NCBI RefSeq assembly: GCF_000711225.1
Contig: NZ_JOMG01000002.1
Location: 818,501-882,500 of the forward strand
Length of the DNA stretch: 64,000 nucleotides
Direction: 5' to 3'
Origin: Pelobacter seleniigenes DSM 18267
Lineage (GTDB): Bacteria; Desulfobacterota; Desulfuromonadia; Desulfuromonadales; Geopsychrobacteraceae
Part shown: in pieces, positions 49,388-64,000 of the stretch
Position numbering within the stretch: the stretch's first letter is position 1
How the letters are laid out: the number at the start of each line of letters is the position of its first letter
Translations under genes and position numbers: made by a program
Notes under the pieces: model-generated
Seen by the model: only the letters and a program-made list of their open reading frames with translations
Database searches by the model: none
Told to the model about the DNA's origin: nothing

Positions 49388-50236
49388 ATGCCGTTTAACC
49401 AACTCGCTGCCAACAAATGCTTTGCAGGACAACAACTCCGCTTCCGCCACCTGTCCCAGGTTCTCGGCTGCGACATGACCTTTTCGCTCTACATGCCGCC
49501 ACAAGCACAGCAAAGACAGGTTCCGCTGCTGCTGTGGCTGTCCGGGTTGACCTGCACAGATGAAAATTTTGTCCAGAAAGCCGGAGCACAGCGTTACGCT
49601 GCGCACCACGGGATCGCCATCCTCTGCCCGGACACCAGTCCGCGCGGCGAGAATGTTCCCGATGATCCGGACGGCGCCTGGGATTTTGGTCAGGGGGCCG
49701 GATTCTATCTCAACGCCACTCAAACGCCCTGGGATCAGCACTATCATATGGAGCAATATCTGATCGATGAGCTGCTTCCCCAAGTGATTCATAACTTCCC
49801 CATCAGCCCCGAACGGGTCGGTATTTCCGGACACTCCATGGGCGGGCATGGGGCGCTGACTCTGGGGCTCAATTACCCGGCCAGGTTCCGTTCAATTTCC
49901 GCTTTTGCGCCGATCTGCGCCCCCTCTCAGGTGCCGTGGGGAAAAAAAGCCTTCAGCCGCTATCTGGGAGAGGATTCCAGCACCTGGTTACGTTACGACG
50001 CTTGTGAGTTGATTCGTCAGCACACCTCCCCGCCTCCGCTGTTGGTGGACCAGGGCACCACCGATCAGTTCCTGGTCGAACAGCTCAAACCAGACCTGCT
50101 GCAGCAGGCCTGCAGTGATCACGATGTCCCCCTGCAGCTGCGCATGCACCCCGGCTATGATCACAGTTACTTTTTCATTGCGACCTTTATCGAAGACCAT
50201 ATCCTGTTTCATTGCGAACGACTTCTGGAAAGTTAA
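49388..50236 (+). CDS. fghA: S-formylglutathione hydrolase
   Basis: 282 aa esterase-D type serine hydrolase. The nucleophile is in GHSMGGHGAL, with GTTDQF and HPGYDHSYFF carrying the likely Asp and His of the triad; LLWLSGLTCTDENFVQKAGAQRYA is a family hallmark. It splits S-formylglutathione to formate and glutathione. AAGGAGAGGA lies before the ATG. Confidence 0.96.
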   Translation: MPFNQLAANKCFAGQQLRFRHLSQVLGCDMTFSLYMPPQAQQRQVPLLLWLSGLTCTDENFVQKAGAQRYAAHHGIAILCPDTSPRGENVPDDPDGAWDFGQGAGFYLNATQTPWDQHYHMEQYLIDELLPQVIHNFPISPERVGISGHSMGGHGALTLGLNYPARFRSISAFAPICAPSQVPWGKKAFSRYLGEDSSTWLRYDACELIRQHTSPPPLLVDQGTTDQFLVEQLKPDLLQQACSDHDVPLQLRMHPGYDHSYFFIATFIEDHILFHCERLLES

Positions 50237-50337
50237 GCTTCATCAAAAGGAATGCTTTGCTGATTTTATTGCAACCCTGCCGGGGCATTGCTAGAATCCG
50301 CCTCAATGACAAACCGATTTGACCCGGGAGGATGGTG

Positions 50338-52008
50338 ATGAACTTTTTTTGCAGCAAGGATTGCCCCGACCTTTGTGCCGCCAGAATCACGGCCGTTGCC
50401 CCGGAGTTCAAAGTGGAGGGGATTGCCGAACCCTGGTCCGATCCCGGATTTGTCTGCGCCAAGTTCAAAACTTTTGCCCGGCGCGAAATCAACAATGGCC
50501 TCAAATCATGGCAAAGCATGGCTGGCGGATCATGTGAATACGCCACCGATCAGGACGCGCTGACCGCCCTGGCCACTTTTCTGGAACCGTTCCGCAAGAA
50601 AAAAATTCTTTTCCAGCGCGGCTCGGGCAGCCTGGCCTATAACATGTACTGCTGGGACCAGCTCTTTGCCAGCTTCGGCAACTGCTGGAACGTCTCCGGC
50701 GGACCCTGCGACGATACCGGCACGGCTGCGCACATCGCTGATTTCGGAGTCCTGGCCAACCCGGACATCACCGGACTGGAAAACGCCGCCACCATCATCA
50801 TTTACGGCAGGAACGCCGCGGCAACCAGCCCGCATCTTTATGCCTACCTGAAGAAGCTGCGCCGGGCCGGAAAAAAAATCATCTATATCGACCCGGTCAA
50901 AACCCGCACCGCCGACCTGGCTGATCGGTTCATCCTCATCAATCCGGGCTGTGACGGCCTGCTCGCCTGCGCCCTGCTGGTCGAACTGGGCCACCAGCGC
51001 GGCTACAACGCCGCCGCGCTGTGCGCAACCGCCGGAGTCTCAACGGAGGACTTTGCTGACCTGCTAGCCTGTATCCGCGGTGGCCGGACCGCCCACATCC
51101 AGGGCTCCGGGCTGCAGCGCCAGCGCAACGGCATGAACGCCTTTCGCTGGATCAACCGGCTGGCGGTGAAAACCGGCATGCAGGATCTGCTGTTCTGGGG
51201 CCACGGCTCCAAGCGGCTGTGGGAAAAACCGCACGCCAACTTTGCCGGCCAGATCCATGTCGACCAACTCGCCACAGTTCTAGCCGCCGGCGAATTCGAC
51301 CTGTTTGTCAATGTTGCCGCCAATCCGCTCATGACCATGCCGGACATCCACCTCTGGCGCTCCGGGATGAGCGCAACCCCCAGTTTGGTGATCGGCACCA
51401 ATCACGATGAGACTGCGCAGCAGGCGACCTTTTTCCTGAAAGTCGGCGGCATGTTCGCGCAAAGCGATTTCATGGCCAGCAACTTTTTCTCCCACAATTA
51501 CAGCCGCACCAACCTGACCAGCGAACTGAGCGATGTCGACGCCGCCACCCTGCTGGCCGGCAAACTGCACCTGCCCCTGAAGATCAAGGAACGCGCCCAG
51601 ATCAAAAAAACTGAAATGCCCCAACGCACCTACCGGACCCAAGAACTTGATCTGACCATGCCCGAATCGCGGGACAAGTTCCAACTGCTGACCGCCTCCC
51701 ACGCCAGCTACCTCAACTCACAAACCCTGCCGGGGATGGAGCAGGGGCTGCAGGTGGTTCACCTCAACAGCGCCGACGCCAGCACCCGCGCCATAAAAAC
51801 CGGCGACGATCTGCGCATTTGCGGTCCTTGCGGCGAGTTTGTCGCCAGCGCCCTGGTCACGGACGACATTGCCCGGGGCACCCTGATGTGCTGGAAGAAT
51901 ATTCCGATGAAACAAGGCTATACCAACAACGCCATCCCGAACCGACTGACGGATTCAGGGGACGGGCTGGCCTTGTATGCGGTGTATGTGGAGATTGAGA
52001 AGATTTGA
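50338..52008 (+). CDS. Molybdopterin-dependent oxidoreductase (short, FDH-like Cys ligand)
   Basis: 556 aa. An N-terminal [4Fe-4S] motif (CSKDCPDLC ... GFVCAKF, C-x3-C-x3-C-x~30-C), a bis-MGD-binding region (TIIIYGRNAAATSPHLYAYLKKLRRAGKKIIYIDP), and a C-terminal MopB domain (QGYTNNAIPNRLT). By hand alignment, Cys in GGPCDD falls where formate dehydrogenases have Sec/Cys, but the following His is Asp here. It is shorter than usual FDH or DMSO-reductase proteins. Being next to formate-producing genes suggests formate or a related substrate, which is inference. Start taken at the second ATG, 7 nt after GGGAGG. Confidence 0.8.
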   Translation: MNFFCSKDCPDLCAARITAVAPEFKVEGIAEPWSDPGFVCAKFKTFARREINNGLKSWQSMAGGSCEYATDQDALTALATFLEPFRKKKILFQRGSGSLAYNMYCWDQLFASFGNCWNVSGGPCDDTGTAAHIADFGVLANPDITGLENAATIIIYGRNAAATSPHLYAYLKKLRRAGKKIIYIDPVKTRTADLADRFILINPGCDGLLACALLVELGHQRGYNAAALCATAGVSTEDFADLLACIRGGRTAHIQGSGLQRQRNGMNAFRWINRLAVKTGMQDLLFWGHGSKRLWEKPHANFAGQIHVDQLATVLAAGEFDLFVNVAANPLMTMPDIHLWRSGMSATPSLVIGTNHDETAQQATFFLKVGGMFAQSDFMASNFFSHNYSRTNLTSELSDVDAATLLAGKLHLPLKIKERAQIKKTEMPQRTYRTQELDLTMPESRDKFQLLTASHASYLNSQTLPGMEQGLQVVHLNSADASTRAIKTGDDLRICGPCGEFVASALVTDDIARGTLMCWKNIPMKQGYTNNAIPNRLTDSGDGLALYAVYVEIEKI

Positions 52009-52058
52009 GGCGCGACAGAAGAGCTGCACAAAGAACCGGATCGTAAAAAGAGGATACC

Positions 52059-52376
52059 ATGGCAGAGCTTGCTACCACTCCGCAACCGCCTTATTACGCA
52101 GTCATTTTCAGCAGTCAGCGAACCGCTGATGATAACGGTTATGCCGACATGGCCACCCGAATGCTGGAGCTGGCGGCCAAGCAGCCCGGCTTTCTGGGGG
52201 TTGAATCGGCCCGGGACGGTTTGGGCATCACCGTTTCCTACTGGGAAAGCTTGGACGCGATTAGCGCCTGGAAACAGAACGCCAAGCACCAACTGGCGCA
52301 AAGGCGGGGACGGGACAAATGGTACTCCGCCTTTCGGGTTCGGGTCGCCAAGGTCGAGCGCGACTACGGTGTTTAA
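52059..52376 (+). CDS. Antibiotic biosynthesis monooxygenase-fold protein
   Basis: 105 aa with the ABM dimeric barrel pattern: YYAVIFSSQRT, MATRMLELAAKQPGFLGVESARDGLGITVSYWESLDAISAWKQNAKHQLAQRRGRDKWYSAFRVRVAKVERDY. Such small proteins act on or bind quinone-like or reactive compounds, and the substrate cannot be told. A GAGG site precedes the ATG, and the gap to the molybdoenzyme is 50 bp, so it may be in the same operon. Confidence 0.85.
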   Translation: MAELATTPQPPYYAVIFSSQRTADDNGYADMATRMLELAAKQPGFLGVESARDGLGITVSYWESLDAISAWKQNAKHQLAQRRGRDKWYSAFRVRVAKVERDYGV

Positions 52377-52464
52377 TTCCCCCCGCCGGAAAAGTCAGAT
52401 CTGGAGCTAAGCCACGGATAACAGATCAGCCGAAACCGCCCCAGAACATCCGTCCGCAATACCA

Positions 52465-53664
52465 CTAAACATCACTGGTCATGATGAACAGCGGCTGCCG
52501 GGAAAAGGACTCGTAGCGGGGGCGCAGACGCTCGGCGTTGTAGTACTTGTGGACATCGACAATTTTCTTCCGCCCGGTGACCACGTCAATGGGCACATTG
52601 TCGTAGCAACCGTTGCGCAGGCTGACCAGACGGCCGGAGATCCCCTGCAGCACCAAATCCAGAGCCAGGTTGCCAAACGCCATGGGCACGATGGAATCGA
52701 TGGCATCGGGGTCACCGCCACGAACCAGGTAGCCGAGGCGCTGATTCACGACATTGACCCGTCGGCCGTCATTGAATTGCGGTGACAACTCTTTCAGCTC
52801 ACGGGCCACCTGATCACCGATCCCGCCAAGCTTCTTATGCCCGTACTGATCCTGCTCATCCCCTTCAAAGGACATATTGTTCTGATGCAACATGGTTGCG
52901 CCCTCGGAAATCAGCACGACCGAGTAGTTGCTCGGATGTTTATGTCGATCCTGGCTGAGGAGCTCCACCAGCTTCTCGATGGCAAAAGGATACTCGGGGA
53001 TAATACAACGATCCGACGCCCCGGCCATAGCCGGCAACAACGCTGAGAAGCCGGCATACCGACCGAACACCTCCAGCACCAGGAACCGTTCGTGGGAACC
53101 GGCGCAGGTGCGCAGGCTGTGGGTCATTTCGATGGTACGGGTGACGCAGGTGGAAAAACCGATGCAGTAGTCGGTGCCGGGAACATCGTTGTCCATGGTT
53201 TTCGGAATAGCCACCACCTTGACCCCTTCCTGATGCAGCCGGAGCCCATAGCTGAGAGTATCGTCGCCACCGATTGGGATCAGCGTATCAATGCCGAGAA
53301 ATTCAATATTCTTCAGCACATCCGCGGTCACATCATTGATGTCGTCCTGATATTTATCACGCAGATGGGAAGGCAGGTTGCTCAGCGGCAGATGGCTCGG
53401 CCGAGTCCGCGAGGTATGCAGAAAGGTCCCGCCGGTCCGCCCTGCACGGTTGACCAGATCTTCGCTCAGTACGCGATAATTATTGCTGTTGTCCGCCTGC
53501 GGATCGGGAATCATATCCACCAGCCCGGCCCAGCCGCGCCGAATACCGATGACCTTGAACCCCTCGCGCAACGCCCGCACGGTAATCGCCCTGATCGCCG
53601 GATTCAGCCCGGGGACATCGCCGCCGCCAGTCAGAATTCCAATCGTCCCTTTATATGCCGTCAT
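52465..53664 (-). CDS. pfp: 6-phosphofructokinase, probably pyrophosphate-dependent
   Basis: 399 aa with the PFK fold: ILTGGGDVPGLNPAIRA at the N-terminus, GGDDT at 132-136 and PKTMDNDVPGTDYCIGFSTCV from 154. Asp in GGDD (ATP enzymes have Gly) and Lys in PKT (ATP enzymes often have Gly) both indicate pyrophosphate as the phosphoryl donor. Residue RERFLVLEVFGRYAGFSA-like segment (here SHERFLVLEVFGRYAGFSA) binds fructose 6-phosphate. AGGAG lies 6 nt upstream. Convergent with the monooxygenase gene; next to the distal end of the cassette array. Confidence 0.9.
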   Translation of the reverse strand: MTAYKGTIGILTGGGDVPGLNPAIRAITVRALREGFKVIGIRRGWAGLVDMIPDPQADNSNNYRVLSEDLVNRAGRTGGTFLHTSRTRPSHLPLSNLPSHLRDKYQDDINDVTADVLKNIEFLGIDTLIPIGGDDTLSYGLRLHQEGVKVVAIPKTMDNDVPGTDYCIGFSTCVTRTIEMTHSLRTCAGSHERFLVLEVFGRYAGFSALLPAMAGASDRCIIPEYPFAIEKLVELLSQDRHKHPSNYSVVLISEGATMLHQNNMSFEGDEQDQYGHKKLGGIGDQVARELKELSPQFNDGRRVNVVNQRLGYLVRGGDPDAIDSIVPMAFGNLALDLVLQGISGRLVSLRNGCYDNVPIDVVTGRKKIVDVHKYYNAERLRPRYESFSRQPLFIMTSDV

Positions 53665-53756
53665 AGTCGTCTCCTGTCCTGGGAAAAAGCATCTTACTCA
53701 TTAAAGAGTAGTGCCTTCCTGGGTTCTGGCAAGGGACATTTTTTGCCGAAATATAA

Positions 53757-54320
53757 CTACAACAATGACGATCCGATTCCTTTCATAGTCATATCAAGGC
53801 CTTCTCTTTCATGCGCTGGTCCATTTCTCATACCCGCAATCACATGTACTCCTCTCACATCAAACTCAAGTAACTGGAACATGCTTTTCGTATAATCAAA
53901 ATACACCTTGAACATGTCAGTATCAGGATTACCCTGAGTAAATACAAGAATCAGCTTCATTTTTATAACTTTTTCTTTGTAATACGGTGAGAATCGCGGA
54001 GAAATTAGAGAAAACAACCTATCGACAAATATTTTCGCCTGTGCACTCATTTGCCCCATATAAACCGGCGAGCCGAGGACAAGAGCATCCGCACTCTCAA
54101 TCGCACCATACAATTCCTGCATGTCGTCATGAATGATACAACTTCGATCTTCCCCATTGTGACAGCAAAGACAACCCTGACAGGGCTTTATGTCGAGATC
54201 GCTGAAATGCCAGGATTGGGTTTCGGCGCCTTGCTCTTTTGCACCTTCAAGTATCTTGTCCATTACCCAGGCGGTATTTCCTTTTTTCCGTGGGCTTGCG
54301 GTAAATCCGATGATTTTCAT
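53757..54320 (-). CDS. Flavodoxin-like NAD(P)H-dependent reductase (cassette gene)
   Basis: 187 aa from MKIIGFTASPRKKGNTAWVMD, an FMN-reductase/flavodoxin fold (phosphate loop SPRKKGNT, then ADALVLGSPVYMGQMSAQAKIFVDR). The segment CQGCLCCHNGEDRSC fits CX2CX2CX7C as in iron-sulfur flavoproteins, so a [4Fe-4S] cluster is possible. AAGGAAG site 6 nt upstream. It is the last unit of the array (next to pfp), and no clear attC is visible past its stop. Confidence 0.85.
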   Translation of the reverse strand: MKIIGFTASPRKKGNTAWVMDKILEGAKEQGAETQSWHFSDLDIKPCQGCLCCHNGEDRSCIIHDDMQELYGAIESADALVLGSPVYMGQMSAQAKIFVDRLFSLISPRFSPYYKEKVIKMKLILVFTQGNPDTDMFKVYFDYTKSMFQLLEFDVRGVHVIAGMRNGPAHEREGLDMTMKGIGSSLL

Positions 54321-54343
54321 TTCTTCTTCCTTGTGCCCTAAAA

Positions 54344-54546
54344 ACATAACGAAGGTGTAGGGAAATCCTACGCCCGAATATTTTTAAAAAATCAGCTTCG
54401 AAATTTGTCCTCAGATCAACTTTTTTGACTCGCTGAATCCTTGAAATTCAATAATTTTGCAACCTCTGAGATTTTTCTACAGCCTCACAGTTTGAGCTCA
54501 AGCCGAAGCCCGTCAGGGCCGTTGCGCCTGCAACGAATGGTTAGCC
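54344..54546. repeat. attC-like recombination site (composite)
   Basis: Starts ACATAAC (near RYYYAAC) and ends GTTAGCC (near GTTRRRY). It includes an inner hairpin GTAGGGAAATCCTAC. The part 54347-54488 is nearly identical to 56728-56880, another attC-like site. A second short palindromic portion (54489-54546) follows, so it may be two sites fused. Confidence 0.6.
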
Positions 54547-54567
54547 GCCAAGGTTGTTGCGGCCTTC

Positions 54568-54990
54568 CTATTTTGCACCTAACGCCCTCAACAGCGACCA
54601 TGCGAGAGACTGTAAGGTTGGTGCGACCGCGGCCAGCGCCAGAACGTATATAAGGGGCAAACCCGCGATAAGTACCGAGTCTGCAAACGAGAGTTGTGGC
54701 CTTACCAGCCGGCCGACCGCCCAATGAGCACCGAACCAGATCAGCGGTGCAACAGAGAAGAGCAGTATATAAAAAACCGCAAGACCTTCCATGCCCGATG
54801 TGCTTCCGGCTGGGATCACAACGATTCCTGCAGCTATCAATGCTGCAGGAATCGACGAGAGGCGAACCTTTAGCCAGGAACTCGCCAAACCCCGTGAGAA
54901 AAACTTTTGACGTTCCCACCGAATTACATACACAAAGCCGAGTAGTGCTACCATAGCAAACAGGATCAGCATCATATAAAAAGGGGACAT
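54568..54990 (-). CDS. Small integral membrane protein (cassette gene)
   Basis: 140 aa with four predicted membrane helices (about 5-24, 46-64, 68-90, 103-127) and a basic loop after the first (RWERQKFFSRGL). No family recognised. An AGGAG site precedes the ATG. Each flank has an attC-like site, so it is a single-gene cassette of unknown function. Confidence 0.75.
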   Translation of the reverse strand: MSPFYMMLILFAMVALLGFVYVIRWERQKFFSRGLASSWLKVRLSSIPAALIAAGIVVIPAGSTSGMEGLAVFYILLFSVAPLIWFGAHWAVGRLVRPQLSFADSVLIAGLPLIYVLALAAVAPTLQSLAWSLLRALGAK

Positions 54991-55046
54991 ACGTTACTCC
55001 TGATTTTGGCACCGTTCATGGTGGTTGGCACACCGTCGCACATGGC

Positions 55047-55103
55047 GGCTAACGTCTGAATTCACAGGCTTTCGCGCAGGTCCGGTGGAATGATGAGTTG
55101 GCC
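55047..55103. repeat. attC site (short, 57 bp)
   Basis: GGCTAAC at one end and GTTGGCC at the other (both one off the RYYYAAC/GTTRRRY core), 57 bp apart. Inner arms AATTCAC / GTGGAAT pair with an unpaired base, as in the classic 59-base element. Confidence 0.7.
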
Positions 55104-55118
55104 AGCAAATGGGTAATG

Positions 55119-55433
55119 TCAATTTACCCACTCCTGATGTTCCGGGACCATTACCCGTTCGCCCCAATCTTGCAGGCCGCTATAGATGTCTGTTCTCGGC
55201 CAAGGCAAACGTTCCTGACTCTTGGACCAAGTGAGATGGACATTTGCAACGCGACCACTTCCGTCCAAGATTTCAAAGAGTGCGTCGTCTCCGTTGCCGC
55301 GAGCTAAGAGCTTTACGGGTTTGCCAAATAAGGAGTGACCGGGCAAAACCTCGATTTGCAGTTGCCGTTGCCAACTCTGAGCAATCTGTTCCCCCATTTG
55401 CATGACGGAGCACCACGGTTCTAGCCATTCCAT
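55119..55433 (-). CDS. Hypothetical cassette protein
   Basis: 104 aa from MEWLEPWCSVM, with AAGGAA 5 nt upstream; a longer start lies inside the attC core and is unlikely. Soluble, Trp-rich, with LFGKPVKLLARGNGDDALFEILDGSGRVANVHLTWS, resembling small beta-rich cassette proteins of unknown role. It sits between two attC sites. Confidence 0.7.
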   Translation of the reverse strand: MEWLEPWCSVMQMGEQIAQSWQRQLQIEVLPGHSLFGKPVKLLARGNGDDALFEILDGSGRVANVHLTWSKSQERLPWPRTDIYSGLQDWGERVMVPEHQEWVN

Positions 55434-55448
55434 GACGGTTCCTTTGAC

Positions 55449-55551
55449 GCCCAACGAGTCTGTAGAAAAACCGAAAAATCAACCGTCCTACAGTTCAGAT
55501 TCTAATTTTGGTTAAGGCCGTTTACCGGCCGGGGCCTGATAAGGGTTAGAC
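55449..55551. repeat. attC site (103 bp)
   Basis: Begins GCCCAAC and ends GTTAGAC, both exact RYYYAAC/GTTRRRY matches. The acetyltransferase TAA stop is inside the right core, as is usual in cassettes. It shares AACGAGTCTGTAG with the fragment at 57601 and GCCGGGGCCTGATAAG with the site ending at 60947. Confidence 0.85.
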
Positions 55552-56277
55552 ATCGGTACACACCCTCAGCGCTTCAACGTCTGCGGACACGATAACGGCC
55601 AAGTGCTTTGTGATTTCTTCAATTGGCCAGTCCCACCAAGCGATTTTCTCAAGCGCCAAGACAATTTCTTGCGAAAAGCGTTCCTTGATTACCTTTGCCG
55701 GGTTGCCTCCGACTACGGCATAGGCAGGCACATCGCTAACGACTACGGAACGCGAGGAAATGATTGCACCATTGCCGATTTTTACGCCGGGCATAATGAG
55801 ACAGTCATACCCTATCCAGACATCGTTGCCAATGATGGTATCGCCTTTGTAAGGAAGGTCACCGGGCTGGGGCATGACCTTTTCCCACCCGTTTCCGAAA
55901 ATCTGGAATGGATAAGTGGAGATGCCGGAAATCTTGTGGTTTGCGCCATTCATGATGAACTTGACGCCACGGGCTATCGCACAAAACTTCCCGATGACCA
56001 GACGGTCCCCAATGAACGGAAAGTGGTAAAGAACGTTACGCTCAAAGTCCTCTGAATCTTCAGGATCGTCGTAGTAGGTGTAGTCACCAATGACGATATT
56101 CGGATTGGTAACAGTATTCTTGATGAAGCATACCTGCGGGAAACCCGCCATCGGGTGCTTGTCTAGTGGATTCGGGCCGTTCAAATGGACTCCTGTTGAG
56201 ATGTCTAACATAGAGCTCGGCGGCAACGCGACCTTGCGAGCACCACTGAACCTTTTCAGATTTAGCAGCTTGGGCAT
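55546..56277 (-). CDS. Vat/CatB-like hexapeptide acetyltransferase (cassette gene)
   Basis: 243 aa from MPKLLNLKRFSG. Left-handed beta-helix repeats (IGDYTYYDD, IGKFCAIARGVKFIMNG, IIGNDVWIGYDCLIMPGVKIGNGAIISSRSVV) plus ANHKISGISTYPFQIFGNGW, the His-bearing segment seen in xenobiotic acetyltransferases Vat and CatB. Members inactivate streptogramin A or chloramphenicol, but many homologues have other substrates, so resistance is not assured. Its stop lies in an attC core, and the AhpD-like gene upstream is only ~40 bp away. Confidence 0.85.
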   Translation of the reverse strand: MPKLLNLKRFSGARKVALPPSSMLDISTGVHLNGPNPLDKHPMAGFPQVCFIKNTVTNPNIVIGDYTYYDDPEDSEDFERNVLYHFPFIGDRLVIGKFCAIARGVKFIMNGANHKISGISTYPFQIFGNGWEKVMPQPGDLPYKGDTIIGNDVWIGYDCLIMPGVKIGNGAIISSRSVVVSDVPAYAVVGGNPAKVIKERFSQEIVLALEKIAWWDWPIEEITKHLAVIVSADVEALRVCTDV

Positions 56278-56316
56278 TCTGTCCGCTTGATTATCTGGTT
56301 GCACAGCCTTTTGAAT

Positions 56317-56655
56317 TTATTGGTAAATTTCGCTTATTACGTCAAGTGCAAATCGAGCTGAGACAGTTCCTGGGCCACCGCTCATTTCAATTCCAACCTC
56401 GATTGCTTCGAGAACCTCTTCTTGTGACGCACCGGCTTGAGCTGATTGTTCAATATGCCATTGCATACAGGATTCACAATTGATAACGACGGAGATTCCG
56501 ACTGCGATTAATTCTTTATGCTTTTTCTGAAGTGCGCCATCGGAAAAGGCAGCTTCTTCCATCTTGAGAAATGCTTTGTAAACTTTTGAATTGAGGGAAA
56601 GTAGTTTTGAATGGGCTTCTTTTCGTTTCTTGGTGAGTTCTTTCAACTTCTCCAT
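56317..56655 (-). CDS. AhpD/carboxymuconolactone decarboxylase-like protein (cassette gene)
   Basis: 112 aa from MEKLKELTKKRKEAHSKL, with AAAGGGG before the ATG. The CMD-type motif (here CESCMQWHI: CxxC followed by His) near the middle indicates a redox-active alkylhydroperoxidase-like fold. No attC lies between it and the acetyltransferase downstream, so both appear to share one two-gene cassette. Confidence 0.85.
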   Translation of the reverse strand: MEKLKELTKKRKEAHSKLLSLNSKVYKAFLKMEEAAFSDGALQKKHKELIAVGISVVINCESCMQWHIEQSAQAGASQEEVLEAIEVGIEMSGGPGTVSARFALDVISEIYQ

Positions 56656-56724
56656 GTTGACCCCTTTCTTCAATTCCAATTTTCATCGGTCGATAAAATT
56701 GCTTTCTTGCTATTTTATTGAGCT

Positions 56725-57010
56725 ATACAACGAAGGTGTAGGGAAATCCTACGCCCGAATATTTTTAAAAAATCAGCTTCGGAATTTACCCTCAGATCAA
56801 CTTTCTTGACTCACCGAATGGTTTTATGACCCTTAAAATTCAATGACTTTGCAATCTCTAGGGTTTTCCTACAGCCTCAACGGTTGGTGATAACCGGCGG
56901 CGACGAAACGCTCGAACATCACCGCAATTTTAGATTTTGCTTTTCAACTTTGCACAGACGTATTTGATATTATCTGCTTAAAAAATCCAATTGCTCTTTA
57001 TTTTTTAGGC
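56725..57010. repeat. Two tandem attC-like sites without a gene between
   Basis: Site A (56725-56889) is nearly identical to 54347-54488 over its first ~150 bp. Site B (about 56875-57010) starts near CAACGGTTGGTGATAACCGG and ends TTTTTTAGGC, matching the layout of 61992-62094. A further complete site follows at 57009. No ORF of note lies among them. Confidence 0.6.
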
Positions 57011-57118
57011 CTAACGCCGCCTTAACCCGCCCAAGAAGTGGCGTGGGCTCGTGTTATAAGCGCAGCAAAGCATAACGCCGCGACGTTTTTGGGATCGGAG
57101 TTGAAGGTCTTGTTAGCT
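57009..57118. repeat. attC site (110 bp)
   Basis: Begins GCCTAAC and ends GTTAGCT. The SRPBCC gene stop (TAA) is inside the right core. It contains a palindromic arm pair (GCCGCC.TAACC / with TTATAAG) and an inner GGCGTGGGCTCG arm. Adjacent to site B at TAGGCCTA. Confidence 0.75.
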
Positions 57119-57580
57119 GGCATTATTGACTGCCTGCTGACTTAAACTACTAAGAACATCGGCCCAAGCCTTACAGCAGAAAGCAAAGTATTTAGAAGAG
57201 GCTGGCCAGCCACAGTGTTCGAATTTGATGACCGTTTGAATCGGCACATTACTAGCCCATTTGTCCATTGCGACCTCAGAACTATCTCTGCCGCCAATTC
57301 TAAAAATAATTTCCGTCCCCGTCCATTCCGACGCCGGGGTGTTATTGGGATGTTTGGAGATACAACGCCACTTCACTAAAGTACTTGGTTCATTAGCCAA
57401 CACTAGAAACTTAACCACTCCATGCTCGGGACCCGGTGAATGTTCCAAAACTGTACCTTCGGAAGTTTCCTTTATGGTTTGCTTGTCCCACCATGTGCTT
57501 ATAGCTTCTGCACTTGATAGGAGCTTGTACACTTTTTCTTGAGGCGCATCTATCCAGACTTCATGTTTAATTGAACTCAT
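57113..57580 (-). CDS. SRPBCC (AHSA1-like) protein (cassette gene)
   Basis: 155 aa from MSSIKHEVWIDAPQEKVYKLLSSAEAISTWWDK, a START-like ligand-binding fold of the AHSA1/polyketide-cyclase type, with DWTGTEIIFRI-like strand (here EWTGTEIIFRI). Such proteins bind hydrophobic ligands; the ligand is unknown. AGGAG lies before the ATG. It is bounded by an attC at its 3' end and an attC fragment beyond its 5' end. Confidence 0.85.
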   Translation of the reverse strand: MSSIKHEVWIDAPQEKVYKLLSSAEAISTWWDKQTIKETSEGTVLEHSPGPEHGVVKFLVLANEPSTLVKWRCISKHPNNTPASEWTGTEIIFRIGGRDSSEVAMDKWASNVPIQTVIKFEHCGWPASSKYFAFCCKAWADVLSSLSQQAVNNAS

Positions 57581-57598
57581 GATTTCTCCTATAAGAAG

Positions 57599-57615
57599 AC
57601 TAACGAGTCTGTAGT
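57599..57615. repeat. attC fragment cut by a RAYT remnant
   Basis: ACTAACGAGTCTGTAG matches the left end of the 55449-55551 site, but the sequence then changes at about 57616 into AT-rich DNA and the RAYT remnant, so the right half is lost. Confidence 0.45.
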
Positions 57616-57640
57616 AAAAAGAAGAGGTCAAAGAGAAGGG

Positions 57641-57951
57641 GGCAAGTCTACGGTTGACTGATTTTCATCTTCCGACACACCTGCACATACATTTCCCGGA
57701 CAGTAACATTCCCCTTCATCATAGACTCAAATCTTGAAATAGCCTTGCTGACAGTGCTGTAGCGGTTGCACTCCAGGACAGCGCCTATCTCTTTCAGCGT
57801 TTTTTGACTCTGCGCTCTTAATACGTACATTGCCATGTCTTTTGGGACATTGGCAACACCACGCTGAACCGCGAACAGTTGCTCTTTGTTAATATCGCAA
57901 ACAGCTCAGATGGCTTGAAAGACCGCCTGTCCGTCAACGGACAGGACTTCA
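57641..57951 (-). pseudogene. Decayed REP-associated transposase (RAYT), C-terminal fragment
   Basis: The coding strand encodes VLSVDGQAVFQAI, then a TGA, then AVCDINKEQLFAVQRGVANVPKDMAMYVLRAQSQKTLKEIGAVLECNRYSTVSKAISRFESM. It is homologous to the copy at 59192-59740, where the stop position reads Cys. It includes the DnaA-like C-terminal HTH found on REP-associated tyrosine transposases; the HUH nuclease domain is missing. The tail (CTACGGTTGAC) is shared with the other copy. Confidence 0.75.
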
Positions 57952-58100
57952 ATTTCATCTGTCGCCATATCAAAAGGCTTACTCAACTAAACTTTTGAAT
58001 TTACAGTGAAGGTAGTGGGCCGATTTTGTGTTCCATAAAAAATCCTGAGATTAAGTCACGATTTTGAGACTCAGAAATCATTTGATCGGCTGAAAGACAT

Positions 58101-59030
58101 TCAGTAGCCAAGCTGACGACTTACAATATTCAATGGTTCTTTTCCCTGACGCAGACGATCATAGTTCGAAATGATTTGCTTCGCTGCGGAAGCAGGATTG
58201 GTGATGCTGGCGATATGCGGAGTTATTTGGATATTATCATGTTGCCAGAAGGGATGTTCTGTCGGTAGCGGTTCTTGCCGAAAGACATCCAGCAGGGCGC
58301 CGGACAGCTGACCTGAGGTAAGAGCCTTCAGCAGGTCTGCCTCGACCAAATGAGCGCCGCGGCCTACATTTATAAGATAGGCTCCCGGCGGGAGCTGATC
58401 GAAAAGTTTGCTATTGAGAATATTCTCCGTCGCCGCAGTCAGCGGCAGAAGACAGACAAGAATGTTACTGTATCCGAGAAACTTTGCCAGCTCTTTCTCG
58501 CCGCTATAGGTCACAATATGATCGAGTTGCTGCGGCGTTCGACTCCAGCCGTGAACCCTGAAGCCAATTGAAGCTAATTTGCCACCAACAAACCGACCGA
58601 TGTCACCACACCCCATGATGCCGACATTCACCTCTGAAATGCTTGGAATCGACAGAGGTTGCCAGGTTTTCATTTCTTGCTGGCTGCTATAATCTTTAAA
58701 GCGTCGGAAATGCCCCAGGGCGGCGAGTTGTACATATTCCGCCATGGACTGCCGCAGATTCGGATCGACCAGACGCACAATTGGGACGCCCGCGGGGACA
58801 TGCGGGTCGTTGAGCAAATGGTCGACCCCTGCCCCGAAGGAAGAAATCAATTTCAGGTTGGGAAGATGATTCAAACTGCCGGGAGGCTGATTCCAGCAGA
58901 GTGCAAGCTCGACCCGCTCCGGAACGCCTATCTGAGGCCAGATTTCGACTTCCAGGTCAGGTTGATGTGTCTGCAGCGCATGGATCCATGCACTACGGTC
59001 ATGGCCGGGAGAGATAATGGCGATAGACAT
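58101..59030 (-). CDS. ghrA: GhrA-like glyoxylate/hydroxypyruvate reductase
   Basis: 309 aa D-2-hydroxyacid dehydrogenase from MSIAIISPGHDRSAWI, with a strong GAGGAGGT ribosome site. NAD(P)-binding GxGxxG is in GIMGCGDIGRFVGGKLA. Catalytic residues lie in NVGRGAHLVEADLL (Arg), FRQEPLPTEHPFW (Glu) and TPHIAS (His). The DHR-type sequence suggests the GhrA branch that reduces glyoxylate or hydroxypyruvate. It is enclosed by the two RAYT remnants and has no attC of its own, so it may have entered the array with them. Confidence 0.88.
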   Translation of the reverse strand: MSIAIISPGHDRSAWIHALQTHQPDLEVEIWPQIGVPERVELALCWNQPPGSLNHLPNLKLISSFGAGVDHLLNDPHVPAGVPIVRLVDPNLRQSMAEYVQLAALGHFRRFKDYSSQQEMKTWQPLSIPSISEVNVGIMGCGDIGRFVGGKLASIGFRVHGWSRTPQQLDHIVTYSGEKELAKFLGYSNILVCLLPLTAATENILNSKLFDQLPPGAYLINVGRGAHLVEADLLKALTSGQLSGALLDVFRQEPLPTEHPFWQHDNIQITPHIASITNPASAAKQIISNYDRLRQGKEPLNIVSRQLGY

Positions 59031-59191
59031 TTTTTTTACCTCCTCACACTCCACAAGCTCAATCAGACGCAGGCTGGTTGTGGCCGTTGCCACGCAACTT
59101 GCCGGAATACGGGTCGAAACAATGAAATTTTCAGATGGAATCCGACTCTCTGGACTTGCAGATGACCAAGAAGGGTCAGAAGGGGTCAAAT

Positions 59192-59740
59192 CTACGGTTG
59201 ACTTATTTTCATCTCCCGGCATAGCCGCACATCCATTTCCCGGACAGTAACATCCCCTCCCACCATAAACTCAAATCTTGAAATAGCCGTGCTGACAGTG
59301 CTGTAGCGGTTGCACTCCAGGACAGCACCTATCTCTCTCAGCGTTTTCTGACTATGCTCTCTGAATGCGGACATTGCCATTTTTTTTTGGGACATTGGCA
59401 ACACCACGCTGAAACGTGAACAGTTGCTCTTTGTCAATATCGCAAACAGCGCAGACGGCTTGAATAACCGCCTGTCCGTCAACGGACAGGACTTCACGAT
59501 TTGAAAGCTCCAGATCTTTATGTAGGTCACCGAACGTCTCTTTGATCATGTCAATAAAGTGTTCAGAGCCAAGTATCGAAGGAAGATTCTTCAGGGAAAA
59601 GAAATGCTGAATGTCCTCAGATTCTTCCTGGCAAACAAAATCGCGATATTCAGCAAAAGCCTTGCCCCCTTTTTGGCGCAATTGAGAAAAAACATTATCC
59701 ACAGCTTCCAACACGACACGACGCTTGGCAGCGTTTTTTG
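59192..59740 (-). pseudogene. Frameshifted, 5'-truncated REP-associated transposase (RAYT)
   Basis: Two overlapping frames together give VVLEAVDNVFSQLRQKGGKAF ... LGSEHFIDMIKETFGDLHKD ... AVCDIDKEQLFTFQRGVANVPKK and, after a shift at a T9 run near 59382-59390, MAMSAFREHSQKTLREIGAVLECNRYSTVSTAISRFEFM. This is the C-terminal part of a RAYT with its DnaA-like HTH; the N-terminal HUH nuclease domain is absent. A related remnant lies at 57641-57951, in the same orientation. Confidence 0.75.
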
Positions 59741-59797
59741 TTTTTGGGCTTGTCTCAAATCATAAAAAAAGAAATGAGCACATTCATTCTTCCTGGA

Positions 59798-59904
59798 ATA
59801 TAACGGCCTTGAATAACCGGCGGCGACGCGAACTTGCGTGTATCACCGATGTATTCGAGAAATTGCGCGGCAATTTTCCGTCCGCGTTGATTCTGGAGTT
59901 ACGC
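59798..59904. repeat. attC-like site (107 bp)
   Basis: Begins ATATAAC and ends GTTACGC (one mismatch each to RYYYAAC/GTTRRRY). It shares AATAACCGGCGGCGACGCG and ATTTTCCGTCCG with the site at 62728-62832. It lies directly after the methyltransferase stop. Confidence 0.7.
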
Positions 59905-59919
59905 GTGCTATGCCATGGC

Positions 59920-60735
59920 TTACCGATAGATTTGCGCAAGCAATTCACCGTGAAGTAGACAAAACCAAGCATCAGGTTCTTCGCCCCATTTGCGCCACGC
60001 ATCGACAATGCCCGCAATATCTGTGTCACTCAGTCCTTGTTCTTTGGCTTGTTGGGCAAAAATTTCACCCGCACAACGGTCAGCCTGCCCATGACCCCAC
60101 CACTGACAAATTTCCGTATTGGCGTAATTCCATACGGAAGCCGTGACTTGTGGGGCGGAGATACCAGCCGCATGCGCCCATGCTCGGAGTCGCCTCCCGG
60201 CATCAGGTTCAGCTCCATTGGCGCGGGCTGCAGCACGATAGGTTTGTCGCCATTGCTCGAGTTCCGGAAGTTCTGGATACCAACACATGGCGGCATAGTC
60301 CGCATCGCGGGCGGCAACCCAACCGCCTGATTTGCACACCCGTACCATTTCCCGCAAAGCGGTTACAGGGTCGGTCAAATGCTGAAGAACCTGATGAGCG
60401 TGTACAGCATCAAAAGATTCGTTCTCGAAGGGCAGTTTCAGAGCATCCCCGAGTTGGAATGTTGTGGTGACATCTGAACGAGCGGCAGCCTCAGCGCGGG
60501 CGGCAAGTAGTGGCGCCTCGACGTTTTCTATACCAACGACCTTTCCTGGTGAGACAAGCGCAGCCAAATCCAAGGTAATCGTTCCGGGCCCGCAACCAAT
60601 GTCTAGGACGTGCATTCCTGACTTTAGATGGGGCAAAAGATAGGCCGCTGAGTTTGTAGCTGTTCGTGCGCTATGAGAAGCGAGGGTGCTGCTCTCATGT
60701 CCGTGCGTATAACGACCGGGTTGGCTTTGGTCCAT
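59920..60735 (-). CDS. Class I SAM-dependent methyltransferase (cassette gene)
   Basis: 271 aa. Motif I VLDIGCGPGTITLDLA, motif II region GDALKLPF, post-motif FDAVHAHQVLQHLTDPVTALREMVRVCKSGGWV: UbiE/MerR-like small-molecule methyltransferase. The C-terminal domain (about 165-271) is helical and Trp-rich, and of unknown substrate. It sits between two attC-like sites. The ribosome site is weak (AGGA about 10 nt before the ATG). Confidence 0.88.
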   Translation of the reverse strand: MDQSQPGRYTHGHESSTLASHSARTATNSAAYLLPHLKSGMHVLDIGCGPGTITLDLAALVSPGKVVGIENVEAPLLAARAEAAARSDVTTTFQLGDALKLPFENESFDAVHAHQVLQHLTDPVTALREMVRVCKSGGWVAARDADYAAMCWYPELPELEQWRQTYRAAARANGAEPDAGRRLRAWAHAAGISAPQVTASVWNYANTEICQWWGHGQADRCAGEIFAQQAKEQGLSDTDIAGIVDAWRKWGEEPDAWFCLLHGELLAQIYR

Positions 60736-60776
60736 ATGCTTGAGGTCCTGGATGGTGAGAGGTTATTTCTGGCTTT

Positions 60777-60947
60777 GCCTAACGAATGGGCTCAGCGCGT
60801 TTGCGAAACGCGCCGCGGAGCAAAGCCCAAGTCAGAACCCGGATGGTTGCTAGTAGATCAGTCGCTTGTCAAAGAACGAAAAGATGAATCTTTTACGTTA
60901 ACGCTATTCTTTACTCTTGACGGCCGGGGGCCTGATAAGTGTTCGGT
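60777..60947. repeat. attC-like site (171 bp), overlapping the 3' end of the upstream cassette gene
   Basis: Begins with an exact GCCTAAC and ends GTTCGGT, where an intact site would read GTTAGRY. The right part GCCGGGGGCCTGATAAG matches the 55449-55551 site. Inside are paired arms GAATGGGCT / AGCCCAAGTC and GCGCGTTT / AAACGCGC. Confidence 0.65.
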
Positions 60948-61313
60948 ATTCTTCAATACGTAGCGAAAAGGGATTTTAAGCTTTTCTCTATTACTAGAAT
61001 TGATGTATTTCCGATGCTCCCCTTTGACTACGTCTGCATCCAGCAGGATTTTCCAGCGATCATTGTCTCCTAAATCGGTATCGTCTAAATCTTCGATTGA
61101 TGGCCCCTGGAGGACTGCTCCGCTATAAATTTTACCAATCACATCGCCCGTCTCTGGATTGGATATGTCAACATCCTGTTTAATTTCCATATAAACTACG
61201 CCATCGCGATAAAAGTACCAACGTAATAAATTGGGTGTATTCGTAATAAAAAGTGCTATGCCGAGGGCAACTATCACAGTTAAGTAAATAATATGGAGTT
61301 TAATATTTTTCAT
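60858..61313 (-). CDS. Membrane-anchored hypothetical cassette protein, reading into its attC
   Basis: 151 aa from MKNIKLHIIYLTVIVALGIALFI, one N-terminal membrane helix (about 6-24), then a soluble beta-rich domain (DGVVYMEIKQDVDISNPETGDVIGKIYSGAVLQGPSIEDLDD). No family recognised. Where the sister cassette at 55546 has TAA in the core (GTCTAAC), this gene has GAA (ACCGAAC), so the frame runs ~33 codons further into attC DNA. The extra tail (from about residue 119) is therefore probably not part of the original protein. Confidence 0.7.
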   Translation of the reverse strand: MKNIKLHIIYLTVIVALGIALFITNTPNLLRWYFYRDGVVYMEIKQDVDISNPETGDVIGKIYSGAVLQGPSIEDLDDTDLGDNDRWKILLDADVVKGEHRKYINSSNREKLKIPFRYVLKNTEHLSGPRPSRVKNSVNVKDSSFRSLTSD

Positions 61314-61325
61314 TATAGCCTGTGC

Positions 61326-61430
61326 ACCGAACGGCTTGAACAAGCCGCGGCAGAGTAACCTCTCAAATTGGCAGAAAGCTTTACGAAAACCGCAGAGCTA
61401 TTAACCGTCGGCTTTATTATCTGGCTGGGC
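61326..61430. repeat. attC-like site (105 bp)
   Basis: Begins ACCGAAC and ends GCTGGGC, each one mismatch from the core pattern, 105 bp apart as in four other sites. The right end follows the ATTAACCG.CGGCTTTATTATCTGGC layout. Weakest of the six long sites. Confidence 0.5.
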
Positions 61431-61434
61431 ATTT

Positions 61435-61986
61435 TCACTGTTTGTCTTCTGCACGTAATGGCGAGTAAGACCATTCACAAAAAGCAAGAAGGCTTTTAGC
61501 GTCCTCATCCATTTCATGCTGATAGTGATGCTGATGTGGAAAGGGTATATTCAACTCACCCTTGCTGAAACCCATTGAACTTAGCTCTGTTGAGAATTTC
61601 TCAAGAGGACCATATGCATATATGAGGTTATGTCTCTCCCAAACTACCGTGGCATTTTCAGACGGAGAATGTGCCCAAATATCAAACCGAGCATCCGCGG
61701 AAAGAAATGATTTAAATCGTGCGATGAATTCGCATAACTGTACTGCTGATAAGCCGGGACTTTGGTAGCGCCCAGGATCGCCCTCGCCTCGTGGAGTGTG
61801 AAGTACATATAGCAAATAATATGGTGGCTTAAGGCACAATGCTAAGCGCTTAAAAACCGCAGGATCACCATTTGGTACGCCCGCGACGATTCGGCATGTT
61901 CCTTCCGACAATTCACTGCACTCATATATTTTCGAAAATGAGTGTTCCTTCCATTCTGTGTCAGATTGATAGTCTAATTTATTCAT
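61435..61986 (-). CDS. Hypothetical cassette protein
   Basis: 183 aa from MNKLDYQSDTEWKEHSF, soluble. Two segments stand out: PPYYLLYVLHTPRGEGDPGRYQSPGLSAVQLCEFIARF and ARFDIWAHSPSENATVVWERHNLIYAYGPLEKF. Similar sequences occur among immunity-like or cassette-borne hypothetical proteins, but I recognise no family with certainty. Bounded by attC-like sites on both sides. Confidence 0.7.
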   Translation of the reverse strand: MNKLDYQSDTEWKEHSFSKIYECSELSEGTCRIVAGVPNGDPAVFKRLALCLKPPYYLLYVLHTPRGEGDPGRYQSPGLSAVQLCEFIARFKSFLSADARFDIWAHSPSENATVVWERHNLIYAYGPLEKFSTELSSMGFSKGELNIPFPHQHHYQHEMDEDAKSLLAFCEWSYSPLRAEDKQ

Positions 61987-61991
61987 TTGAT

Positions 61992-62094
61992 GCCCAACAG
62001 TAAGATAACCGGCTGCGACGGGTCGGTACAATTTAGTAGAAATGTTTTCGAGAATCGCACCTATATCACCAGTCCGGTTTATTATTTTTTAGGC
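61992..62094. repeat. attC site (103 bp)
   Basis: Begins with an exact GCCCAAC and ends TTTAGGC (one change from GTTAGGC). Arms GATAACCGG / CCGGTTTATT pair. Same layout as site B at 56875-57010. Confidence 0.8.
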
Positions 62095-62096
62095 AT

Positions 62097-62717
62097 CTAT
62101 GGTGTTCTAGCCGGTACATACAGGCCCTCGGCATTCAGGAAATTGTCTAACTCTTCAGGTGTAATTGTTACTTTGCCATTATGATGCGCTATAAAATTTA
62201 AACTGTTAAGCGTGATTATTGGTCGTGAATATTTCCCATCGTTTATTTGCGATATCATCCCGAGAGTATAAAGTGAAACATCGGTGTATGATTCACCTTT
62301 TGATGCGTAATATGATTTTATTATTATCGGAATTTTATTGGTAAGCATTTTTATGGTCCCATCTTCAGGCTTTACCCTTTTCAAAATATGGTTTTCCAGT
62401 TCATATAATACGGAACCCATATCCCAAAATTTTCCAGAAGAGTCTATAGGCGTCGGATCTGCATATATCGACGGAGGGAAATATACCTCCCCTTCAAGAA
62501 AATGAGACTCACTGGTTGCCGAAGTAACTTGTATTTCATCACCTTTTTCGCCAAAGCTTCCTTTTAGTATTAAATACCGTTCTTGCTTATATTGCAGAAC
62601 GCTCAATTCGTGGGCTTGATAAGCAAATGTCAAACCCACTAAAGAGATTATGGCAGCAATTAAAGATATTATCAGTGGTGCTAGTGGGTTCTCTGCTAGT
62701 GCTTTTAGCTTTCTCAT
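62097..62717 (-). CDS. Membrane-anchored hypothetical cassette protein
   Basis: 206 aa. A basic start (MRKLKALAENP) is followed by one membrane helix (LAPLIISLIAAIISLVGLTFAYQ, about 11-33) and an ~170-residue soluble domain with beta-type segments (RYLILKGSFGEKGDEIQV; DVSLYTLGMISQINDGKYSRPIITLNSLNFI). No family recognised. The start codon is only ~10 nt from the upstream attC core and has no clear Shine-Dalgarno, so it may be translated from a leader within the site or be weakly expressed. It is the most attI-proximal complete cassette in the window. Confidence 0.7.
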   Translation of the reverse strand: MRKLKALAENPLAPLIISLIAAIISLVGLTFAYQAHELSVLQYKQERYLILKGSFGEKGDEIQVTSATSESHFLEGEVYFPPSIYADPTPIDSSGKFWDMGSVLYELENHILKRVKPEDGTIKMLTNKIPIIIKSYYASKGESYTDVSLYTLGMISQINDGKYSRPIITLNSLNFIAHHNGKVTITPEELDNFLNAEGLYVPARTP

Positions 62718-62727
62718 AATGTTTATT

Positions 62728-62832
62728 GTCTAACGGTAGTGATAACCGGGCGGCGACGCGGGAACCGCATCCCACCGAACTCCTCAATTTAGAACAGACG
62801 TATTTTCCGTCCGGTTGATTGGTTTGTTGAAC
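62728..62832. repeat. attC site (105 bp), right end of the visible array
   Basis: Begins with GTCTAAC and ends with GTTGAAC, both exact or near-exact core matches. Arms GATAACCGGGCGG / CCGTCCGGTTGAT pair. There is no cassette gene to its right; the IS91-family element starts within about 110 bp, so a further cassette was probably cut here. Confidence 0.85.
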
Positions 62833-62943
62833 AAAGCCGCTAGCGCGGCGGGAAAAATCAGCTCACAATCTTACCAACTCCAGCTTCAGGGTAAACTTCT
62901 TGGCATGGCCCAATTCAGGGCCCTCTGAGCAAAGGAGTTTATC

Positions 62944-63869
62944 ATGGAATCATCGGAACAATCCCGCTTTAACGATCTCTACCAACGTCACCTGCGCATG
63001 CTGAAGTTGCAGGGCAAAAGTGACAAGACCATCGATGTGTATGCCCGTGCGGTCCGCCGGGTGGCCCAGCATTTCGATTGCTGTCCCGACCGACTCTCGC
63101 CAGATCAACTGGAAGTCTACTTCGGCCAGTTGGTCGACTCCCACTCCTGGAGTACGGTCAAGGTCGACCGGAACGGCCTGCAATTCTTCTGGAAACATGT
63201 GCTCAAACAAAACTGGCAGTGGATCAACATCATCAAACCGCCAAAAATCCAATCCCTTCCGGACATTCTCACCACAGCAGAGGTGGAAATATTGCTGGCG
63301 ACGGCGCGCAAGCTGCGTTTCCGGGTGTTTTTCCTGACCACTTATTCCATGGGGCTCCGCCTGGAGGAGGCTCTGGCCCTCCAGGTTGGCGACATTGATG
63401 CGTTACAAAAACGGGTTCATATCCGTTGCGGAAAAGGCCGGAAGGATCGTTTTGTTCCCTTGCCCGACCTCACCTATCAGGCCTTGAGGGCCTTGTGGTC
63501 TGTGCATCGTCACCCGCATCTCCTCTTTCCAAATGCCAACGGGTCACCGCAGACGATCCGGCGGGCGACAACGCATATGGACCGGGGCGGCGTGCAGAAA
63601 ACGATCAAGGTCCTTGCCGCGCAGTGCGGGTTTAAAAAAAAATCACCACGCACTCTCTGCGCCACAGCTTTGCCACCCATCTGCTTGAACGCGGTCTGAG
63701 TCTGCGCCATATTCAGAATCTACTCGGTCATGCCAGTCCCACCACCACTGCCCGCTATGCTCACCTAACCAATGTCACTGAAAAAGAGTCTCTGCTCACC
63801 ATTAATCGCCTGATCAATTCCCTGCCTCTTTCTCTGGGAGGCGATGATGGATCTGAGCTCTATCGTTGA
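62944..63869 (+). CDS. IS91-associated tyrosine recombinase, -1 frameshift at an A9 run
   Basis: The first frame (62944-63699, 251 aa) has a SAM-like N-terminal domain ([20 protein letters not shown]) and the start of the catalytic domain ([21 protein letters not shown] with the first Arg; [12 protein letters not shown]). At the A9 run 63634-63642 a -1 shift enters the frame [43 protein letters not shown], which supplies HxxR, H and the Tyr. With the shift the product is 308 aa. The [10 protein letters not shown] part matches IS91-associated enzymes and not integron integrases, and the IntI-specific insert is absent. The unshifted product lacks the catalytic Tyr. Confidence 0.75.
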
Positions 63870-64000
63870 ACGATTTTACGATTCTTTCATGACCCAGTAT
63901 GCCGGCCGGTTGCGCCCTGGTCAGCGCCGTGCTCTTCGGGCCATCAGACGCTGCCGGACTCCCGCCGCAGGGGAGCTGTATCTCCGCTGTCCGGAATGCG
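63844..64000 (+). CDS. IS91-family transposase (5' part, runs off window)
   Basis: From [53 protein letters not shown]: the N-terminal zinc-ribbon region of IS91 transposases, before the HUH rolling-circle domain. It overlaps the shifted recombinase frame by 26 nt, pointing to coupled translation. Only 52 codons are visible. Confidence 0.85.

Follow-up and report, generated by a model that had tools for sequence, protein, structure and literature searches.

The Cassette Array of Pelobacter seleniigenes

The window considered here is a stretch of 64,000 nucleotides from Pelobacter seleniigenes DSM 18267, which corresponds to positions 818501–882500 of contig C2 in a 5.09-Mb genome available as a six-contig draft. 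Between window positions 53757 and 62832, the sequence and its list of open reading frames (ORFs) contain about eleven small genes, all on the minus strand, with attC sites in between (Table 1). According to Pfam and NCBIfam they encode, among others, an FMN reductase, a Vat-type acetyltransferase, a CMD-family protein, an SRPBCC-like protein, a 2-hydroxyacid dehydrogenase and a methyltransferase, and for several no family was found. GC content is 0.469 in the array and 0.560 to its left. The region is probably the distal part of a chromosomal integron, called array A below, that keeps its attI site, is devoid of an integrase and has been hit by elements found in attC cores, including a cassette-like group of IS91-like insertion sequences (IS).

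A preliminary description, made from the sequence alone, had proposed an integron-type cassette array without a visible integrase, composed of about ten small genes of one strand between palindromic sites. This proposal is borne out by six attC found in the window with a covariance model and by the matching of cassette cores. The five sites of 103–107 bp are present as it stated, the stop codons of the acetyltransferase and SRPBCC genes both lie in an R'' core, and a TIGR02249 search of the window found no IntI.

attC Sites and Core Matching

The covariance model, R1, was trained on 23 attC from three other genomes of the same family and on none from the P. seleniigenes genome. Nine pairs make up its consensus stem, and in two of them changes on both sides preserve the pairing. 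In P. seleniigenes, R1 recognised the six attC between 53757 and 62832 and a seventh one in array A past the window, and over the whole genome it gave 15 matches at E <= 1 (150 of 1629 first-look candidates scored); two weaker attC of a second array, array B, were seen by R1 in a search of that locus and are absent from the genome-wide list. All 15 attC of this list lie on the minus strand of contigs C1 and C2. The sites at 60777–60947, 57009–57118, 55449–55551, 55047–55103 and about 54486–54546 have no R1 match and are assigned to other attC types by reading and core matching. Rfam at the gathering threshold gave no match in window positions 50000–64000 or in loci L063–L066. A scan for RYYYAAC..GTTRRRY palindromes returned 24 matches, hardly above chance (mean 18.2, range 10–25, in 20 resamples), and the motif perceived by eye is therefore in itself no proof of attC.

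In a real cassette the 5' core is expected to match the cassette's own R'' core, because both derive from one attC. When this was examined in 20 cassettes from arrays A, B, and C (the last a third array of the genome), 98 of 140 positions agreed between the 5' core and the own 3' R'' core; in 100,000 permutations the mean was 52.9 (standard deviation 5.5, maximum 81). The cores were placed by eye, with the expectation partly known and not blind. Per cassette, the match averages 4.90/7 for the own junction vs 3.00/7 for the next one, and it reaches 10/10 in two cassettes of the window (the 140-aa and Vat-like ones). The placement by eye weighs against this evidence, as does a poor match in three of the 20 cassettes (c7, 3/7; SRPBCC, 3/7; B-c3, 1/7). 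The test covered cassettes with a clean core pair and thus left aside FMN reductase, the dehydrogenase block, the gene-less attC, B-c4, C-c3 and array E. Both hallmarks of a cassette array were found, namely attC of conserved structure and, at hand-placed positions, 5' cores pairing with the own R'' core, and an integron cassette array with attC after its genes is confirmed.

Extent of the Array, Putative attI, and the Missing Integrase

The covariance search was extended to the right flank, where the preliminary description had suggested looking for more attC and for intI and attI. The attC are significant, and array A passes the IS91-like element and continues through three further cassettes to its right (L018:2653–4670). 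The array spans from about 872.25 kb of C2 to an attI-like stretch at C2:885655–885787 (L018:4656–4788), 3.2 kb past the window, and no intI was found there. This stretch is 78% identical over 135 bp to its counterpart in array B, the region between an intI fragment and the first cassette at 1.68–1.69 Mb of C2, about 0.8 Mb away. Array C (C2:1.98 Mb) begins with a related 40-bp attI-like piece. At each of the three arrays, the core at the attI junction and the first cassette's R'' core agree at 8–9 of 10 positions. Attachment-site-like sequence thus occurs at three places in the P. seleniigenes genome, and none of the 43 other family genomes has a match to the array B stretch. Position and homology make the stretches at the three arrays putative attI sites. 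Inside all three lies a palindrome like CCGTGTTATAACACGG (L018:4703; L017:9118; L069:9834, minus strand).

No full-length intI was found in the genome, and with all 19 first-look candidates scored no TIGR02249 match exceeded the cut-off of 265. The best IntI remnant is the fragment in array B, with 112 codons that match profile positions 1–104 at 127.9 bits and are 66.7% identical over 108 residues to the integrase of the closest relative in the family (G027). The remaining TIGR02249 matches fall in other tyrosine recombinases with long open frames or within the IS91-like element. The lone N-terminal fragment suggests that movement of cassettes by a resident IntI is probably no longer occurring. 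A 124-bp attC stretch shared at 99.2% identity by arrays A and B suggests that one integrase formerly served both. In the family, attC of R1 type were detected in 35 of 44 genomes and an integrase over the cut-off in 16 of 44, a gap that draft assemblies blur.

Other attC occur outside the three arrays. Locus E (C1:140563–143190) has three R1 attC and locus D (C2:457621–457732) a single one, both without a recognised attI; two further cassette-like loci, at 1385 kb of C2 (L084) and 186 kb of C5 (L088), are known by their MITE-like (miniature inverted-repeat transposable element-like) or IS91-like ends. A repeat of about 180 bp near the attI of array A and near the intI fragment was considered as a shared integron platform and dropped, because it is dispersed genome-wide, with at least 41 matches of 86–96% identity (40 of 127 candidates scored; for example L017:9716–9899, L018:5887–6069 and window 1320–1511); it has no Rfam match in L065 and L066.

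With two or more attC and no adjacent intI, array A is by working definition a cluster of attC sites lacking integron-integrases (CALIN), yet one with a retained attI; it is not a complete integron, since a full-length intI was not found, and the attI beside the first cassette is recognised by homology and position. Its cassettes, as their paired ends suggest, would have been taken up by an integron integrase, of which no gene is left beside attI, and the array has also been struck by the elements found in attC cores, both MITE-like and IS91-like. The preliminary description had left the choice between a CALIN and the distal part of an integron with the integrase past 64 kb; both alternatives call for amendment, since the CALIN definition and the distal position stand but an attI, and no integrase, was found past the window.

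Two other accounts of array A were weighed. Cassettes inserted in trans at a secondary site would give a CALIN that never had its own attI or integrase, in line with the failure to find intI beside the array and with loci E and D; this is very unlikely given the attI-like proximal end, its homology to the stretch on the intI-fragment side of array B and the correctly joined first cassette. It is likewise highly improbable that array A is still mobile through a functional intI that was overlooked or lies in an assembly gap. The genome is unclosed and 16 family members do carry an integrase, but completeness is 100 and none of the 19 candidates scored is a full IntI. The room that six contigs leave for an intI in a gap, and the fact that position and homology are the only two grounds for calling the attI stretches, weigh against an integron that kept attI and lost its integrase, which nevertheless is the reading we prefer.

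The IS91-Like Element and Its Targets

The element at the right edge of the window is 2.3 kb long (62826 to C2:883650) and codes for a tyrosine recombinase of Xer/IntI-like type and an IS91 transposase. The transposase belongs to the IS91 family (NF033538, 373.2 bits, cut-off 125). The recombinase, in its own interrupted frame, scores 86.2 bits with TIGR02249 and is by the cut-off of 265 no integron integrase; two intact plasmid copies reach 161.9 and 164.4 bits, below the same cut-off, and score best with a XerA-type model. The preliminary description had an IS91-family element disrupting the attI-proximal side of the array, and the position is right; it is no chance disruption, since the group to which the element belongs is mostly found in attC-like cores.

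Ends were mapped by comparison among copies. Relatives of the transposase (E <= 1e-30) occur in 14 of 136 genomes of the order, and in the 15 loci where the downstream end could be read, one of them with a transposase of 44% identity, the terminus ...CTTATTC is followed by GTT (15/15), mostly as GTTA (14/15). When 277 genomes of the class were searched for the terminus pattern, 55 sites turned up in 31 of them; the reversed pattern gave five matches. Thirty-seven of the 55 sites, those with at least 38 of 48 terminus bases identical, were kept; GTT follows in 34 of the 37, and GTTAG in 25 of these. Among the 18 sites dropped, 13 are also followed by GTT and several are arms of complete short attC, as are L219 and L256 among those kept. 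The opposite, 5' end is present in 12 copies, of which three are on plasmids, and reads GTTGAACNAAGCCGC in every one.

At this 5' end an R1 attC begins exactly in five of the eight order copies with sufficient flank, and in all five the element lies inverted within the attC R'' core. When orientation was judged from ORFs at 35 of the 37 termini (two have too little flank), 22 were inverted, with a reverse ORF that ends at the core, 5 were standard and 8 unclear. The same call was made at 210 of 1863 GTTR control positions. Hence the element is not found in array orientation, as a cassette would be, either in the five R1-supported copies or in the majority of termini. In the P. seleniigenes genome, four copies of the terminus were found (one full element, one internally deleted and two single ends), each of which adjoins a GTT where a convergent ORF ends. 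That the element end might be the attC of an upstream cassette was rejected, as the 48-bp terminus is near-constant and the attC body opposite varies.

In eight of nine order copies (L164, L165, L167, L168, L170–L172, L178) the recombinase frame shifts at a run of 8–9 A, six requiring –1 and two +1, which suggests programmed frameshifting within the class. The Vibrionaceae and Escherichia coli copies examined have single frames.

Relatives Outside the Class

Transposase relatives of 45–52% identity are present in 6 of 72,556 plasmid records. In the E. coli plasmid RCS41_p, the element lies reversed in a class 1 integron, with aadA1 on one side and the 3' conserved segment on the other. An aadA-type attC is split between its two flanks, and at the aadA2 cassette of the same record an attC core of this kind is intact. 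A megablast search of ecoli_genomes with the E. coli copy gave no match. In Salinivibrio kushneri, the element flank forms a strong palindrome, equalled in 1 of 400 controls. Three of four Photobacterium flanks presumably resemble Vibrio-type attC. No transposase relative was found in the phage collection, and none was confirmed in viral contigs.

How the Element May Insert

Read in its coding direction, the element has CGGGCTTGTYCAAC, an attC-like hairpin and then GTT, and its start, GTTGAACNAAGCC, can pair with that end. The group would thus be cassette-like in its own direction, with a 3' attC-like hairpin and two pairable ends. Complete short attC that share the arm sequence of the element exist at L219, L244 and L256, and the element may be derived from a cassette or imitate one. 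A circle junction computed for copy L166 with RNA parameters, and with no shuffle control, takes an attC-like fold with 12 outer pairs.

On balance, we lean toward a family of elements of about 2.3 kb that mimic cassettes and enter attC R'' cores backwards in this class, on plasmids of Vibrionaceae and, in E. coli, within a class 1 integron; the boundaries from GTT to GTT, the attC left on both sides and the A-run frameshift within the class would go with it. In array A, the element lies within the R'' core of the attC of the third cassette. Most insertions would be in reverse, with the bottom-strand GTT of the attC as the point of entry, and an exchange between the element's circle and the GTT of the target R'' core would yield the GTT boundaries observed. 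Circle formation and strand exchange at GTT by the element's own tyrosine recombinase would be the favoured route, with the IS91 nuclease as the alternative.

Several observations weigh against cassette mimicry. The invariably reverse insertion of the element and the part played by its recombinase are things we infer, and the ORF-based calls with standard or unclear orientation, like the uncontrolled circle fold, belong here too. Of the 37 termini, no more than 18 have the strict GTTRRRY core; order copies L167 and L168 have no attC at the 5' end, L172 has an attC-like start only, and the flank of Photobacterium copy L276 shows no attC by eye. When the two flanks were joined and tested for a palindrome (12 copies), most were indistinguishable from controls (L164 and L273, 1/400 each; L171, 20/400), in a test that misses attC detected by R1.

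Part of this is what would be seen if the elements inserted beside GTTA or GTT in the fashion of IS91, and attC were struck because the core begins with GTT. IS91 relatives have GTTC or CTTG beside one end, a family rule of short targets that counts for such a simple explanation, and the target beside the 3' end is always a short motif here too, L167 and L168 at the least fall outside any recognised attC, and the strict core is missing from about half of the termini. Yet attC occupy by estimate well under 0.1% of these genomes, and an R1 attC stands exactly at the other end in five of eight copies; reverse ORFs end at the core far more often at termini than at the GTTR controls; and ten more distant IS91 loci, with ends unmapped, gave a single weak R1 match (20.6 bits). 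We regard insertion beside GTT as unlikely. We give similarly little credence to the idea that the element is a normal gene cassette, which IntI would insert in reverse by using the top strand of the attC it targets. This would agree with the attC-like hairpin and matching cores at the circle junction and with GTT-to-GTT boundaries as in cassette insertion. IntI selects the attC bottom strand and so imposes one cassette orientation (PMC11023631), whereas the five R1-supported insertions and the one at aadA1 are inverted; some insertions also lie outside attC. Backward entry of a cassette-mimicking element thus stays the preferred explanation.

Other Elements and Features of the Window

MITE-like elements with ends like GAGRCTGTAGAAAAAC are possibly a second kind of attC-directed element: AAC or GTT stands before 16 of the 19 ends listed, in many cases within an attC core. 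Ends were recorded in the window (54351–54486, 55456, 56732–56878, and 57605), and at L069:9223, L080:7054 and 5567, L084, L049, L054, L170 and L171. An IS1182-type partner is our guess for these elements. In array B, an IS110-type element (NF033542) sits in an attC (L017:3265–4308), a habit known for the IS1111-attC group.

On either side of the dehydrogenase gene of array A stands a repeat of about 320 bp (57634–57951 and 59178–59496). The two copies are 87–94% identical and contain short ORFs, and are possible remnants of a gene for a REP-type transposase.

Table 1. Features of array A in the window, with the basis of each assignment.
Feature	Position	Strand	Basis or remark
FMN reductase-like gene, last cassette	53757..54347	-	Pfam PF03358 and sequence; no attC recognised after it by sequence reading
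MITE-like insertion within attC core	54351..54486	.	Repeats D3/D4, copy search, mapped ends
attC of 140-aa cassette, split by MITE-like element	54486..54546 (about)	-	Core 10/10 vs cassette 5' core; no R1 match
Cassette gene, 140 aa, no Pfam family	54568..54990	-	ORF and Pfam
Short attC, 57 bp	55047..55103	-	Arm score 38.5, matched cores; no R1 match
Cassette gene, 111 aa, no family found	55119..55454	-	Pfam/NCBIfam searched
attC, distal half replaced by MITE-like end (at 55456)	55449..55551	-	Reading, repeat D9; no R1 match
Vat-family streptogramin A acetyltransferase-like cassette gene, stop within R'' core	55546..56214	-	NF000311, 327.3 bits, cut-off 300; cores 10/10
attC	56203..56304	-	R1, 32.7 bits
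CMD family cassette gene	56317..56679	-	PF02627
MITE-like insertion between AAC/GTT flanks	56732..56878	.	Copy search, mapped ends
attC of gene-less cassette	56876..56983	-	R1, 39.9 bits
attC of SRPBCC cassette, gene stop within core	57009..57118	-	Sequence; own 5' core weak, 3/7; no R1 match
SRPBCC-like cassette gene	57113..57592	-	PF10604, E 0.00054, below cut-off
2-hydroxyacid dehydrogenase gene between two 320-bp repeat copies (D1/D2)	58101..59033	-	PF02826; own attC not recognised
attC	59799..59904	-	R1, 63.7 bits
Methyltransferase cassette gene	59920..60735	-	PF13847
Long attC, 171 bp	60777..60947	-	124 bp at 99.2% to array B attC stretch; matched cores; no R1 match
Cassette gene, 161 aa, no Pfam family, ORF extends into attC	60858..61343	-	ORF and Pfam
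attC	61326..61430	-	R1, 41.4 bits
Cassette gene, 185 aa, no family found	61435..61992	-	NCBIfam searched
attC	61992..62094	-	R1, 40.3 bits
Cassette gene, 206 aa, no NCBIfam family	62097..62717	-	ORF and NCBIfam
attC body of third cassette (gene past window edge)	62728..62832	-	R1, 67.9 bits, E 8.6e-13
Last 7 bases of this attC body, 5' end of IS91-like element	62826..62832
IS91-like element, first part: tyrosine recombinase (from 62944, with frame change at a run of A) and transposase start	62826..64000	+	Ends at C2:883650, past window

Comparison with Known Systems

Arrays devoid of an integrase are already known, as are insertion sequences of the IS1111 group that target attC (PMC9024848 and PMC12444791 for the former, references in PMC12444791 for the latter). 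In PMC9024848, 2961 CALINs stand against 2760 complete integrons, and CALINs are proposed to be degraded integrons. For an IS91 group that targets attC, no report was found in what could be seen of the open-access literature, the scope of the search, with subscription papers outside it. Comparison between arrays of one genome reveals attI that are invisible to a search lacking a known attI model, and therefore some CALINs may be integrons that have lost the integrase only. If real, the attC-directed IS91-like group would add to the kinds of mobile element known to exploit attC hairpins. Its resemblance to a cassette prompts the idea that attC can also serve a tyrosine recombinase that is not IntI, acting at the opposite core and in the opposite orientation.

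Array A has in common with sedentary chromosomal integrons and CALINs, in IntegronFinder terms, cassettes of one orientation with attC and no nearby intI. It differs in that attI is kept, that two more arrays with attI or attI-like stretches are present in the genome and that the only intI is truncated. The element, for its part, shares with the IS91 family and with insertion sequence common regions (ISCR) a transposase that passes NF033538 and a short target at one end, and differs from them in the additional Xer/IntI-like recombinase, the pairing ends that resemble cassette cores and the location in attC. Group IIC-attC introns, named in PMC7923331, also use attC as landing places, but their mobility is RNA-based and they have no sequence relation to the IS91-like element. 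The IS1111-attC group likewise comprises insertion sequences specific to attC sites; the element described here, in contrast, is not of IS110/IS1111 type, combines an IS91 transposase with a tyrosine recombinase and has the R'' core as its target.

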